Assembly (NCBI RefSeq): GCF_025397915.1
Contig: NZ_JALIDZ010000004.1
Coordinates: 248,001 to 312,000 of the forward strand
Reading direction: 5' to 3'
DNA length: 64,000 nt
Source: Microbaculum marinisediminis
GTDB taxonomy: Bacteria > Pseudomonadota > Alphaproteobacteria > Rhizobiales > Tepidamorphaceae
Part shown: piece by piece, positions 21,945 through 27,680 of the stretch
How positions within the stretch are numbered: position 1 is the stretch's first letter
Layout: every line of letters starts with the position of its first letter
Position numbers and translations under genes: made by a program
The notes under the pieces: generated by a model
Databases searched by the model: none
The model's input: only the letters and a program-made list of their open reading frames with translations
Told to the model about the DNA's origin: nothing

Positions 21945-22579
21945 AGCTGCGGCGCGCCGTAGGTCTGTTCCTGATCGTCGAAGATGGTGTCGCCCGTGGT
22001 CGTCAGCGCGTCGTCGTCGGGCTCTTCCGTATCGACCACCTTGTAGCTCTTGCCCGTGGCGAAGAAGGAGGCGAGGCGCAGGTGGATGTCGGCGGCGGCT
22101 TCCTTGGCGGCCCGGTTCTCCGCGTCGATCATGGCGCGATCATTGGCAAAACGCTGGTTGAAATAGTCCAACGAGGCGATCCGCGTGACCGTTCCGGTGG
22201 TCAGCGTGCCTTCCTCGCCCACCTTCTTGAGCGTATAGCGCACCTGGAGCCGCAGGTTGCGGCCGCCAGGAAGGCCGGAAATAGAGCGCGTCAGCACGTT
22301 GGTGTAGCGCGCCTGGACGTTGAGATCGACGATGTAGCTGCCGCCGGATTCAGCGCCGCCGTTCATGTAGAACAACAGATCGTTGCGGACCTGCTGGCCG
22401 ACGCGGCCCTCGACCGGCGCCACGTCGACATCGGCGAGCGCCGTGGTGGTCATGCCGCCGGTGCCGGTCGCCGCCGGGCCGTACAGGGGCTTCACCTGGC
22501 AGCCGCCGACAAGCGTCGCGGCGAGGAGGCCGAGCGCGAGGGCGGCTTTGCGCGGCAATGCGAAATCAGGCGACCACAT
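21941..22579 (-). CDS. lptE: LPS-assembly lipoprotein LptE
   Basis: 212-residue outer-membrane lipoprotein that plugs the LptD barrel and helps place lipopolysaccharide on the cell surface. The signal peptide ends in a lipobox, LVGGC, with the acylated Cys at about residue 27; it is followed by QVKPLYGP, typical of alphaproteobacterial LptE/RlpB. The start at 22579 lies inside the 3' end of leuS (14-base overlap). The order leuS-lptE-holA is conserved across proteobacteria, which supports the call despite low sequence conservation in this family. Confidence 0.9.
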
Positions 22580-25184
22580 TCACGATCCTCTGGGGCACGA
22601 CGATGATCTTGCGCACCGGCTTGTCGCCGATGGCGCGCTGGACGCCGGTCAGCGCCAGCGCGGCGGCCTCGATCGCAGACTGATCCGCATCGCGCGAAAT
22701 GACAAGCTCATCCCGGCGCTTGCCGTTCACCTGGACCGGCAGCGTCACCGTATCCTCGACCAGAAGCGCCGGATCGACCTGCGGCCAGTCGGCCAGCGCC
22801 AGCAGGCTGTCGTGGCCCAGCACGCGCCAGGATTCCTCGGCCAGATGCGGTACCATCGGCGCGGAAATCCGCACGATGACCTCGGCGGCCTCGCGCAGGG
22901 CCCAGCCGAGATCGGCCGCGGTCGCGCCGTTGGAGGCCGAGCCGAGCACGGCCGTCACCGCGTTGACGACCTCGTAGACATGGGCGATGGCGCGGTTGAA
23001 GCGCAGCTCCTCGATATCCTTGGACACCGCCGCGAGCGCCTTGTGCGTCACCCGGCGCAGCGCCTCGGCCTCGGACCCGAACGCCTGCGGCAGGGCGGTC
23101 CCGACCGGCGGGGCGAGTTCCGCGACCTGGCCGACCAGCCGCCACAGCCGCTGGACGAAGCGCCAGGCGCCCTCGACGCCGGATTCGGTCCATTCGCTGT
23201 CGCGCTCCGGCGGAGTGTCGGAGAGCATGAACCAGCGCGCCGCGTCGACGCCGTAGGTCTCGACGATTGCCTCCGGCGAGACGACGTTCTTGCGCGACTT
23301 CGACATCTTCTCCGGCGCGCCGACCGTGACCGCAGACCCATCGGCGCGGGCGACGACGGAGCCGTCCTCGCGGTGCTCCACCTCTTCGGGGAACATCCAC
23401 TGCCCCTGCGTGCCGCGATAGGTCTCGTGGGTGATCATGCCCTGCGTGAACAGGCCCCGGAACGGCTCTTCCAGGGTGGTGTGGCCGGTCTTCTTCATGG
23501 CGCGCAGGAAGAAGCGCGAATAGAGCAGATGCAGGACGGCGTGCTCGATGCCGCCGATATACTGGTTGACGGGCAGCCAGTCGTCGACGGCTTTGCGGTC
23601 GACGACATCGGTGTCGCGCGGCGAGCAGAAGCGGGCGAAGTACCACGAGGAATCGACGAACGTGTCCATCGTGTCGGTTTCGCGCCGCGCCGCCTTGCCG
23701 CAGGACGGGCAGTCGACATGCTTCCAGGTCGGATGGTGGTCGAGCGGATTGCCCGGCTTGTCGAAGGTCGCGTCGTCGGGCAGCAGGACCGGCAGGTCGG
23801 CCTCCGGCACGGGGACGATTCCGCAGGAATCGCAATGGATTACCGGTATCGGGCAGCCCCAGTAGCGCTGCCGCGAGATGCCCCAGTCGCGCAGGCGGAA
23901 ATTCACCTTCCGCGCGCCGGTGCCGGCGGCTTCCATGCGGTCGGCGATCTCCTCCTTCGCCTGCGGCACGCTCATGCCGTTCAGGAATTCGGAGTTGATC
24001 AGCACCACCGCCTCGCCGTCCTTCTCGACGAAGGCCTCGTCGCCAACCTCGAAGGTCGCCGGATCGGCATCGGCCGGGGCAACGACGGGAATGACCGGCA
24101 GGTCGTACTTGCGGGCGAAGTCGAGGTCGCGCTGGTCGTGCGCCGGGCAGCCGAAGACGGCGCCTTCGCCGTAGCCCATCAGCACGAAGTTGGCGACGTA
24201 GACCGGTAGCCTCACGTCGGGCCGGAACGGATGAACCGCATAGAGCCCCGTGGCAAAGCCCTTCTTCTCGGCCCGCTCGATGGCCTCCTCGCTGGTGCCG
24301 AGCGCGGCGCATTCGCGCCGGAAGGCCTCCAGCTCCGGATTGGTTTCGGCAAGCCGCTTGGCCAGCGGATGATCCGGCGAGACGGCGCAGAAGCTCGCCC
24401 CGAAGATGGTGTCGTGGCGGGTGGTGTAGACGACGAGCGGCTCGTCGACGGCCTTGCCGTCGCCGTCGACCATGTCGAAGGAAAAGCGCAGGCCCTCGGA
24501 CCGGCCGATCCAGTTGCGCTGCATCAGGCGCACCTTGTCGGGCCAGTTGTCGAGCGTGTCGATGGCGTCGAGCAGCTCCTGGGCGTAGTCGGTGATCTTG
24601 AAGAACCACTGCGCCAGCTCGCGCTTCTCGACCGGCGCGCCGGAGCGCCAGCCGCGCCCGTCGATAACCTGCTCGTTGGCGAGCACGGTCTGGTCGACCG
24701 GATCCCAGTTGACCAGCGAGGTGTGGCGCTCGACCAGGCCCGCCTTCAGGAACTCGACGAACAGCAGCTGCTGCTTGGAATAATATTCCGGATCGCAGGT
24801 CGCCAGTTCGCGGTTCCAGTCGATCGACAGGCCGAGCAGCTTGAGCTGCGCCTTCATCGTCTCGATGTTCTCGTAGGTCCATTCCTTGGGATGGACCTTC
24901 TTCTCGATCGCGGCGTTCTCGGCGGGCAGGCCGAAGGCGTCCCAGCCCATGGGATGCAGGACGTTGAAGCCCTTGGCGCGCTTGTAGCGCGCGACCACGT
25001 CGCCCATCACATAGTTGCGGCCGTGGCCGATATGGATCTTGCCCGACGGATACGGGAACATCTCGAGCACGTAGTACTTCGGCCGCGGGTCGTCGTTGTC
25101 GGTCGTGAAGACCTTCTCGTCGTCCCAGACTTTCTGCCAGCGTGCTTCGGATTCGCGGGGATTGTAGCGTTCGTTCGCCATCAC
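22566..25184 (-). CDS. leuS: Leucyl-tRNA synthetase
   Basis: 872-residue class I aminoacyl-tRNA synthetase. The HIGH motif appears as [10 protein letters not shown] (about residues 49-58) and the KMSKS loop as [10 protein letters not shown] (about residue 635). The CP1 editing domain with [11 protein letters not shown], which clears mischarged norvaline/isoleucine, is intact, as are two CxxC zinc motifs (CDSCG and CPSCG). Two ATGs are adjacent (25184 and 25181); the second gives [10 protein letters not shown], the usual N terminus. It heads the leuS-lptE-holA operon. Confidence 0.97.
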
Positions 25185-25358
25185 GTGAGCCGGATTTCAG
25201 GGGTCGACGGGTAGATGGACTGAAACCGGGGGCGGGGTCAACTGGGGACTGGAAACGAAGCGGTATCGGGCATCCGCTTGGCGTCTGCTACGGTTGTTGT
25301 AGTTTTGTATCCCACATTTGCCCGTGCTCCTGCCTCGCGTATTCGACAAAGGGATTTC

Positions 25359-26261
25359 ATGGCTTTCGGCGTCTTCATTCACCGGTTCGATTCAATCTAC
25401 GACGATAGCCCAGCGGAGCGATATCAGTTCCCAAAGCAGTATCTTAGTCGCGTCAATTCCTGTGTCGGCGATTGGATCGTCTACTATGAGCCCCGCAAAG
25501 TTCCCGACACGCGTGGATACTTCGCTATCGCGAGGGTGCTCCAAGTAATACCTGACCCCGGCGTCGATGGAATGTTTATAGCCGTAATCGAGCCCGGGAG
25601 TTACCTGGAGTTTCCTAATCCAGTACCGTTTTCCGATGTTGAGGGTGTTGTCGAACGTGGACTCCTTAACAACGAGGGGCGTGTTTCGGGGCGCGCGCAA
25701 TCGGCCGTACGCGACCTCTCGCCAGACGATTTCGCCAGAATCGTCACGATTGGCTTAAACGACGATTCTCCCGTTCTCCCTAGAGGTATCGAAGAAGAAC
25801 TCAATGTTCCTGGCTTCGAAGAAGCGCAGGCGCCCTTCGAGTATGAAATCGAACGGAACCGTACGACGTTTCTTTCATCGAGGATCGTTCGGGACCGAAT
25901 ATTCAGGCGAATTGTTCTGCGCGCCTATGACGAACGGTGCGCGATCGCAGGGTTGAAATTCATCAATGGTGGCGGGCGGGCCGAAGTTGCCGCAGCTCAT
26001 ATCCGGCCAGTAGAGGCCAACGGGCCGGATACCGTTAGTAATGGCATTGCTCTTTCCGGAACGGCACATTGGATGTTCGATCGCGGTTTAATAAGTCTAT
26101 CCGATGACCTCGAGATCCTCATTTCTCGGCAGGTCAATGATCAGGAGTCCATTCGGACATTTATTAACAAGAGCGGTCGTGCACTTTCCCCTTCCCGACC
26201 TTCCGACCGGCCCCATCCCGCGTTCCTCAAATGGCACCGCGAAAACTGCTTCAAGCACTGA
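25359..26261 (+). CDS. Solitary HNH endonuclease with N-terminal beta-rich domain
   Basis: 300-residue protein starting at ATG 25359 (AAAGGG six bases upstream). The C-terminal HNH_2-type nuclease domain (about residues 190-275) shows AAHIRPVEANG (first His), SNGIALSG (Asn) and AHWMFDRGLIS (last His). The N-terminal region (about 1-110: GDWIVYYEPRK, RGYFAIARVLQV, GMFIAVIEPGSYLEF) has the look of an EVE/PUA-like ligand or modified-base reader domain, though that is inference. No methylase gene is nearby. Base use is visibly AT-richer than neighbours and codons such as TTA, ATA and AGA occur, suggesting horizontal transfer. It may be a modification-dependent restriction enzyme. Confidence 0.8.
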   Translation: MAFGVFIHRFDSIYDDSPAERYQFPKQYLSRVNSCVGDWIVYYEPRKVPDTRGYFAIARVLQVIPDPGVDGMFIAVIEPGSYLEFPNPVPFSDVEGVVERGLLNNEGRVSGRAQSAVRDLSPDDFARIVTIGLNDDSPVLPRGIEEELNVPGFEEAQAPFEYEIERNRTTFLSSRIVRDRIFRRIVLRAYDERCAIAGLKFINGGGRAEVAAAHIRPVEANGPDTVSNGIALSGTAHWMFDRGLISLSDDLEILISRQVNDQESIRTFINKSGRALSPSRPSDRPHPAFLKWHRENCFKH

Positions 26262-26503: not shown

Positions 26504-27175
26504 ATGACAGCCACCGATCGCCTCACCGAAGTTCTCTCCAATATCCGTGCGGCGGAGGCCGAGGCCGGGCGTCCGGACGGGTCGGTGACGCTCGTCGCCG
26601 TCTCCAAGACCTTCGAGGCCGATGCCATCGAACCGGTCATCGCGGCCGGTCAGCGCACCTTCGGCGAGAACCGCGTGCAGGAATCCCAGGCCAAGTGGCC
26701 GGCGCTGAAGGCCGCGCATCCGGATATCGAGCTGCACCTGATCGGCCCGCTGCAGACCAACAAGGTGAAGGAGGCCGTCGCGCTGTTCGACGTGATCGAG
26801 ACCGTCGACCGCGACAAGCTGGCCCGCGCGCTGAAGACGGAAATGGACGCGCAGGGCAGGACCTTGCGGCTCTTCGTCCAGGTCAACACCGGGGCGGAGC
26901 CGCAGAAGGCCGGCGTCCTGCCGGAGGACGCGGCCGCGTTCGTCCGGCGCTGCCGCGAGGAGCACGGGCTTGCGATCGAGGGGCTGATGGCGATCCCGCC
27001 CTTCGACGAACCGCCGGCGCCGCATTTCGCGCTGCTCGCCAAGCTTGCCGGGGAAATCGGCCTGAAGACGGTTTCGATGGGCATGAGCGCCGACTACGAG
27101 ATCGCGGTGGCGCACGGGGCGACGCATGTGCGGGTGGGCAGCGCGATCTTCGGAACGCGGCCGAAGCCGGCGTGA
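26504..27175 (+). CDS. YggS-family pyridoxal phosphate homeostasis protein
   Basis: 223-residue PLP-binding protein of the YggS/PROSC family, a fold-type III barrel without known catalysis that buffers PLP. Family motifs: LVAVSKTFEAD (Lys that binds PLP), FGENRVQE, LHLIGPLQTNK, and near the end MGMSADYEIAVAHGATHVRVGSAIFG, the phosphate-binding stretch. The start ATG 26504 (MTATDRLTEVL) fits the family; the frame is open to 26291 but that part crosses a palindromic repeat. The last 60 bases of the gene are duplicated at 27337-27396. Confidence 0.94.
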   Translation: MTATDRLTEVLSNIRAAEAEAGRPDGSVTLVAVSKTFEADAIEPVIAAGQRTFGENRVQESQAKWPALKAAHPDIELHLIGPLQTNKVKEAVALFDVIETVDRDKLARALKTEMDAQGRTLRLFVQVNTGAEPQKAGVLPEDAAAFVRRCREEHGLAIEGLMAIPPFDEPPAPHFALLAKLAGEIGLKTVSMGMSADYEIAVAHGATHVRVGSAIFGTRPKPA

Positions 27176-27200
27176 GCGCGCCTGGGGGCTGATTACCCGC

Positions 27201-27680
27201 GTCCGTGCCTGATGCGCGGCATCGTGGGCCCTGGATCAAGTCCAGGGCACCGGTTTGTTCAAGTGGCACGGCCGTGCTCCGCATCGCAGAAACGATTACT
27301 GGTGCCGGGCGTCTTTGCAGCGCGCTTTCGCGAAAGGCGACGCATGTGCGGGTGGGTAGCGCGATCTTCGGAACGCGGCCGAAGCCGGCGTGAGCGTCGC
27401 GATCTGACATGTAGCGTCCGTGCCTGATGCGCGGCATCATGGGCCCTGGATCAAGTCCAGGGCACGGGTTTGTTCGTGTGGTACGGCCGTGCTCCGCATC
27501 GCAGAAACGATTGCTGGCATGGGCGTCTTTGCACCGCGCTTTTGCGGAAGGCGACGCATGTCCGTGCCCGTTGCGCGGTTTCCTGGACCCCGGACCACGT
27601 CCGGGGCGCGGGTTTGTTCAAGTGGCACGGTCGTGCTCCACATCGCAGCGGCGTGCCCTGGACTTGATCCAGGGCCCATG
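27201..27680. repeat. Tandem repeat block with embedded palindromes downstream of the yggS-like gene
   Basis: Three related units begin with GTCCGTGCC at 27201, 27416 and 27560. Units 1 and 2 (period 215) share long stretches including TGATGCGCGGCATC and GCTCCGCATCGCAGAAACGATT. Unit 3 is shorter in spacing (144), because only unit 1 carries the copied yggS tail (27337-27396). Each unit holds a palindrome of the type GCCCTGGA-TCAAG-TCCAGGGC: 27228-27248, 27443-27463, a diverged CCCCGGACCACGTCCGGGG at 27588-27606, and a reversed copy at 27655-27675. No protein-coding signal is seen in 27176-27853. Confidence 0.85.
27337..27396 (+). pseudogene. Duplicated 3' end of the yggS-like gene
   Basis: Sixty bases nearly identical to 27119-27178 (one difference, GGGCAGC versus GGGTAGC), encoding ATHVRVGSAIFGTRPKPA and a stop. 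It has no start of its own and lies 218 bases downstream of the original. It marks a duplication that formed together with the repeat unit. Confidence 0.85.

Follow-up and report, generated by a model that had tools for sequence, protein, structure and literature searches.

Few EVE-HNH enzymes are known biochemically, three being named in the sections of PMC7897488 drawn on here, where VcaM4I is described as a proven modification-dependent enzyme of this kind that binds and cuts 5mC DNA and cuts 5hmC faster than 5mC. The same sections give the sensor of TagI, a related nuclease, as an SRA domain. EVE-HNH proteins as a group are treated as predicted type IV enzymes in section 9 of PMC7641849. 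VcaM4I (6yex), with TspA15I and CmeDI, has the order EVE domain, linker and HNH domain within about 300 residues, and the same order was found in the protein described here. No experimental test of the rhizobial EVE-HNH clade was found in the literature searched, with most subscription journals and supplements out of reach.

The window (the whole stretch of 64,000 nucleotides of Microbaculum marinisediminis DNA that was analyzed) carries a gene that we consider, with a probability of roughly 0.8, to encode an EVE-HNH modified-DNA restriction enzyme, in which an HNH nuclease cuts near a modified base read by an EVE-type domain. Sensor, linker and nuclease are arranged on one polypeptide, and no cognate methylase adjoins the gene. 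By its modeled structure the protein joins the EVE-HNH type IV restriction enzymes as a new member that is divergent in sequence, with a predicted activity. From the fold, motif and architecture, as given by a predicted model and the sequence, we infer a mode of action by which the N-terminal EVE-type domain would bind DNA with a modified base and would receive this base flipped into its pocket; the base would most likely be a phage-type substituted cytosine. The C-terminal McrA-type HNH domain would then be brought to cut the DNA nearby, and phage restriction would follow. The host would be spared, its own DNA being without that modification, and for this reason a cognate methylase would be unneeded. 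The features of the locus are listed below, with conservation given for alignments A2 (39 sequences) and A3 (51 sequences).

22566..25184, minus strand: leuS (leucyl-tRNA synthetase), left flank of the insertion site; adjoins yggS in relatives
25348..25354, plus strand: candidate Shine-Dalgarno-like AAAGGGA before the ATG, found by eye
25359..26261, plus strand: predicted EVE-like-HNH endonuclease gene, intact, 300 amino acids, start backed by relatives
25359..25763, plus strand: predicted EVE/PUA-type modified-base sensor domain, residues 1-135 (AlphaFold2, Foldseek, VIA-align)
25764..25853, plus strand: linker, residues 136-165, modeled with low confidence; fastest evolving part of the protein (median dN/dS 0.192)
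25938..26099, plus strand: HNH_2 nuclease core, residues 194-247 (PF13391, E 1.6e-8, 34.7 bits, cut-off 21)
25998..26000, plus strand: codon of H214, predicted catalytic; invariant in A2, aligned to AHIRP of TagI
26040..26042, plus strand: codon of N228, predicted catalytic; invariant in A2
26067..26069, plus strand: codon of H237, predicted catalytic; at least 90% conserved in A2, invariant in A3
26504..27175, plus strand: yggS-type gene with an Ala_racemase_N fold, which we take to be yggS; flanks the insertion site on the right and adjoins leuS in relatives

The open reading frame (ORF) of 903 nt runs unbroken from ATG to TGA over 300 codons, and its product contains both peptides, GDWIVYYEPRK and RGYFAIARV, by which a sequence-only reading of the window had picked out the N-terminal domain. 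A genome scan (tblastn, E up to 1e-3) revealed at least 571 stretches that encode relatives, the best 80 of which align from residue 1 with a methionine at this position in support of the start codon. Among relatives (named-genome copies), the median dN/dS was 0.085 for 188 pairs with dS restricted to 0.15-1.0, the window copy itself being too distant from the three relatives tried. When calculated by part, the median was 0.078 for the sensor and 0.064 for the nuclease, compared to the higher value of the linker (172 pairs). Thus, the gene family is under purifying selection in relatives, and the number of relatives together with the low median dN/dS indicates that the ORF is not due to chance.

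The gene has a GC content of 0.539 and a GC3 of 0.568, compared to a GC3 of 0.905 for leuS and 0.897 for yggS, and when the window was divided into 64 one-kb bins, the lowest GC (0.558) was found at 25001-26000. These results agree with the earlier description of a solitary HNH nuclease gene with a composition unlike its neighbors, as the intact ORF stands between leuS and the yggS-type gene. Within the gene family, GC was below that of the flanks in 66 of 81 loci (own locus counted); thus, the window copy shares its low GC with most of the family.

The C-terminal half of the protein is, as judged from sequence, an McrA-type HNH_2 nuclease with conserved H, N and H residues. The HNH domain proposed earlier was borne out by a PF13391 match above the cut-off and by H214, N228 and H237, all three of which are invariant in A3. 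The nearest solved proteins by sequence were TagI and VcaM4I, each matched through its HNH half. TagI (6ghs) was the best PDB sequence match of this half (E 2e-4; 5e-10 by profile), with a structural match confined to model residues 142-300.

Two other families share this type of nuclease. The phosphorothioate-dependent SBD-HNH family NF045808 matched the HNH half (residues 171-299) with 104.1 bits against a cut-off of 180; only model positions 154-284 were matched, and membership was rejected. The unmatched N-terminal half of the NF045808 model is presumably the sulfur-binding domain. The HNH_2 half of HHPV4I (SRA-wH-HNH, m6A) was similarly alike (32% identity over 107 residues), and membership in this wH-HNH type was also rejected, as no match to the DpnI_C winged helix was found in the window protein (Pfam, E up to 1) while the DpnI_C-type domain of HHPV4I was found by the same Pfam library with 60 bits.

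The sensor half was examined by structure prediction and fold search. For the full-length protein, the best AlphaFold2 model had a pLDDT of 76.7 (58.9-65.1 for the remaining four) and was unreliable at residues 137-166 (pLDDT under 50). Residues 1-135 modeled alone gave a pLDDT of 90.5 and a pTM of 0.85, the other models ranging from 84.8 to 87.3. When the full model was searched with Foldseek, four matches had E up to 0.001, and VcaM4I was at the top with an E of 2.5e-9 across both domains, followed by TagI and then by EVE-type, YTH, DrmAB and THYN1 chains. The VcaM4I match had a TM of 0.31 and an rmsd of 18 Å, which indicates that the domains match but their mutual placement does not. That VcaM4I is the best whole-model match is in line with the view, taken from the sequence before any search, that the protein is a sensor-HNH fusion of the type used in modification-dependent restriction.

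For residues 1-135, the first Foldseek match was MJECL36 (2p5d; E 1.3e-4, TM of about 0.6), the sole match under 0.001, with YTH domains next and then SmaMcrB-N, PH1033, DrmAB and Lon N-domains. VIA-align, in which no entry titled as SRA, SBD or winged-helix was present among the 50 matches listed, gave Z scores of 12.7 for PH1033, 11.9 for MJECL36, 11.0 for Rpa0253 and 10.8 for Atu2648, compared to 10.0 for SmaMcrB-N, 9.9 for THYN1 (solved with 5mC DNA), up to 9.7 for YTH, 9.7 for ASCH and 9.4 for VcaM4I. PH1033, MJECL36 and Atu2648, which we take to be EVE-family proteins, are thus among the nearest folds, and their solved chains (143-146 residues) are without a nuclease. By this approach, the EVE/PUA-like fold foreseen for about residues 1-130 was recovered, albeit in a predicted model (pLDDT 90.5, Z 12.7 to PH1033). 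The results support the assignment of residues 1-135 as an EVE/PUA-type domain with a predicted role as modified-base sensor. The fold alone cannot name the ligand, since the PUA-type YTH and ASCH domains scored only about 3 Z units lower.

At the level of sequence, the link of the sensor to bacterial EVE proteins was weak. An EVE profile, built from the 27 of 30 fetched EVE proteins that passed a motif filter, aligned with the sensor by hhalign over a partial stretch (columns 60-132) with a P of 1.2e-4 and a probability of 55%, and a more diverse set gave a P of 0.0016 and a probability of 16%; the lowest P among 37 control families was 0.043. To the sensors of four VcaM4I-type proteins no profile link was detected (hhalign P 0.2), such that the likeness to the VcaM4I sensor is structural only, with 8% identity. 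Searches of Pfam, NCBIfam and PADLOC gave the sensor domain no name. The Pfam EVE model matched neither the sensor nor a VcaM4I relative (L174), and for this reason its miss of the window protein is uninformative; both misses accord with the remark in section 9 of PMC7641849 that many defense EVE domains are visible to sensitive methods only.

In the relevant sections of PMC7897488, the contacts of VcaM4I with the flipped base include Q10, T11, E15, W22, P24, W82 and Y130, with the gap being filled by Q128. An ungapped alignment made by eye with a shift of one residue places S12, D16 and P25 of the window protein over T11, E15 and P24 of VcaM4I, hhalign having given no reliable N-terminal alignment. 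Of the three residues, D16 and P25 show conservation of at least 90% in A2 and do not vary in A3; Y14, Y22 and F24 close by are conserved as well. S12, D16 and P25 as counterparts of the VcaM4I pocket residues are put forward as a hypothesis, since the register was not confirmed by hhalign.

We next considered which modification may be read. Generic cutting of 5mC DNA by the EVE-HNH enzyme, as a guard against methylated foreign DNA, would be in keeping with the activity of VcaM4I, with the THYN1 structure and with the finding that the genome of the window has no match to PF00145. Carriers of the gene would, however, be expected to avoid m5C methylases, and no such avoidance was detected among the genomes of the order. 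Among close carriers, 11 of 25 had PF00145, as did 129 of the 272 remaining genomes (Fisher p 0.84); for close and intermediate carriers together, the counts were 21 of 47 compared to 119 of 250 (p 0.75). Both comparisons are of low power and take no account of sequence context. As carriers do not avoid m5C methylases, generic 5mC cutting is unlikely.

The presence of m5C methylases in close carriers is also of relevance to a type II-like arrangement, in which the EVE-like domain would read an unmodified sequence and a methylase, located elsewhere or formerly adjacent, would protect the host. The claim that no methylase is adjacent held for the window copy, the neighbors of which are leuS and the yggS-type gene, but not for some of its relatives. 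Flanks of up to 6 kb were scanned (complete to the left and right in 62 of 80 named-genome loci), and the methylases found were of type IIG or type I in the close clade and m5C in the distant clade. By a crude motif, an m5C methylase was detected in 0 of 87 close loci, while 6 of 87 had a DPPY-type motif match. Close copies beside or near such enzymes were few: L058 has an MmeI-type IIG restriction-modification (R-M) enzyme 64 bp away; L072 has a protein 60 bp away that by eye is similar to this enzyme; a DNA methyltransferase adjoins L184; and HsdM is 1.7 kb from L049. Four further plasmid neighborhoods were read: in one, a type I R-M system adjoins a 43%-identical copy (L172), and in the other three, around close copies, the gene table, which is incomplete, lists no methylase within 8 kb. 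A partner gene common to all copies was not found.

In the distant clade, an m5C methylase lies about 0.3-0.5 kb from the gene in L118 and L119 (L131 repeats the L119 protein). The methylase of L118 is already paired with its own nuclease in an adjoining Eco29kI-type R-M pair, and that of L119 is DrmMII-like and adjoins the gene together with Vsr and a DrmD/DrmA-like helicase in a DISARM-type setting; thus, both methylases look like island neighbors. With these two methylases read as island neighbors, and with no m5C methylase motif in the 87 close loci, a type II-like system is quite improbable. That some copies of the gene lie among defense genes is in keeping with the restriction role proposed here. 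Membership in type II R-M was likewise rejected for the window gene, which is flanked by leuS and yggS with no cognate methylase beside it and no PF00145 match in its genome. The island of L119 (4110-11931) also holds a recombinase-like gene, named by eye, and the L131 copy of the L119 HNH protein is on a viral contig. At another locus (L124, 6001-7802), two HNH_2 proteins with unlike N-terminal parts are encoded tail to tail.

The domain may instead act as a YTH reader, or the protein in the manner of HHPV4I, in an m6A-dependent enzyme. The YTH Z scores and the resemblance of the HNH half to that of HHPV4I are consistent with this possibility, but EVE folds scored above YTH, and HHPV4I, according to the part of PMC10101028 used here, requires both wH and HNH for m6A-dependent cutting, whereas the window protein gave no DpnI_C match. 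In addition, a gene adjacent to a MutY-like one in the genome of the window was identified by eye as a CcrM-like m6A methylase. General m6A cutting would therefore be self-destructive, and while a context-limited cutter is still compatible with this host, m6A dependence is very unlikely. Two PF01555 matches were found in this genome, at C1:87700 and C4:551732, compared to a position of C4:273359 for the EVE-HNH gene. The second of these (C4:551732-552709, L183) is an N6/N4 methylase gene, Mod-like by eye, beside a phage-integrase-type gene.

With generic 5mC and m6A both unlikely, the modifications left to the proposed EVE-HNH restriction enzyme are 5hmC, glycosylated or other phage cytosines, and 5mC in a limited context. 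A doubtful but specific extension is that the base read by the alphaproteobacterial clade is not plain 5mC or 5hmC but a phage cytosine that is bulky or hypermodified, and that the plasmid copies of this clade are part of a rhizobial plasmid-linked resistance to phages like RL38JI. In this phage of Rhizobium leguminosarum, deoxycytidine is replaced by three modified residues, as stated in the sections of PMC7067960 consulted, and the reference list of that paper includes a 1993 work whose title concerns RL38 resistance carried by the sym plasmid pRP2JI. The reading of a bulky base is somewhat disfavored by the EVE-HNH enzyme TspA15I, which is reported in the cited sections of PMC7897488 to prefer 5hmC over glucosylated 5hmC. 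RL38JI provides a natural test phage for modified-cytosine restriction. If active, the enzyme would allow one gene to block both modified phages and DNA transfer in rhizobia, and it could perhaps serve as a reagent with which to study modified cytosines.

The leuS-yggS gap of the window is 1.3 kb and contains the EVE-HNH gene. Seven other genomes of the family were compared, in five of which a gap of about 0.16-0.23 kb separates divergent leuS and yggS genes. G007 has both genes on one strand with about 0.24 kb between them, and G006 has a gap of about 0.76 kb with no match to the EVE-HNH protein in it. Only one of the seven (G003) has a relative, at 46%, and the two from the same genus (both 85-86% complete) have no match. 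The gene thus appears to have arrived as a single gene, since leuS and yggS are adjacent without it in family relatives. These sites, together with the low GC3, substantiate the earlier suggestion of transfer, and the gene was probably brought in horizontally. In a tree of 86 rows, the window copy formed a long branch (0.5) with a placement that was not settled, and for this reason no donor can be named. A search around the insertion for repeats and for promoter-like and terminator-like sites gave nothing convincing, with no promoter or terminator match.

Matches were found in 54 of 297 genomes of the order at an E of up to 1e-10, a count that takes in fragments and matches to the nuclease alone. 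Of these genomes, 25 were close (E below 1e-100, with the own genome among them), 22 were intermediate and 7 were weak. The A2 profile matched 28 of 398 genomes of the phylum and 20 of 289 of the class, when no more than five or eight candidates were scored in each genome and the own genome and nuclease-only matches were counted. The matches from beyond the class comprised one of full length (G378) and two to the nuclease only. Plasmids contributed 105 matching records, 43 of which cover at least 80% of the query, and the rest, among those listed, were fragments or nuclease-only relatives. The family is thus patchy and often plasmid-borne, and forms a clade that is large and well conserved among nitrogen-fixing bacteria and their relatives. 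Conjugation-like genes were near five Ancylobacter and Aquabacter loci, and a TraG-type domain was found in L001. Relatives were few among viral contigs (5 loci when scanned with A1, 6 with A2 and 1 with L105), and none were found with L106 or the VcaM4I relative, while phage records gave nuclease-half matches only (3 records).

The gene guaA (GMP synthase) was present in 16 loci and ends 17-105 bp before the gene on the same strand in 15 of these, the sixteenth having guaA 1.1 kb before the gene. The 15 linked loci are from Bradyrhizobium, Pseudolabrys and kin (e.g., L012, L013, L028 and L032). An insertion hotspot or an old shared insertion is apparent at this site. A selfish homing-type HNH element with no role in defense could account for this constant site, the patchy spread and the single-gene insertion at leuS-yggS, but is extremely unlikely given that the insertion is intergenic, that insertion sites vary among lineages and that the nuclease is of the McrA/HNH_2 type with a base-reader fold.

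Short remnants of the gene were observed on Sinorhizobium and Rhizobium plasmids (e.g., H57, H59, H65 and H72-H80), which suggests repeated gain and decay. On the Sinorhizobium plasmid NZ_CP140902.1, a close copy and a short VcaM4I-like HNH gene are about 9 kb apart, at positions of about 94 and 103.6 kb (L170 and L177), and AFSD01000008.1 similarly has matches to both a close copy and a VcaM4I-like HNH gene. Within the window, the region behind yggS (27103-27680) looks like a palindromic repeat cluster, with a 104-nt direct repeat in three copies (100, 94 and 78%), a 76-nt stretch from the end of yggS that recurs once (89%), and a 29-nt inverted pair that is perfectly complementary.
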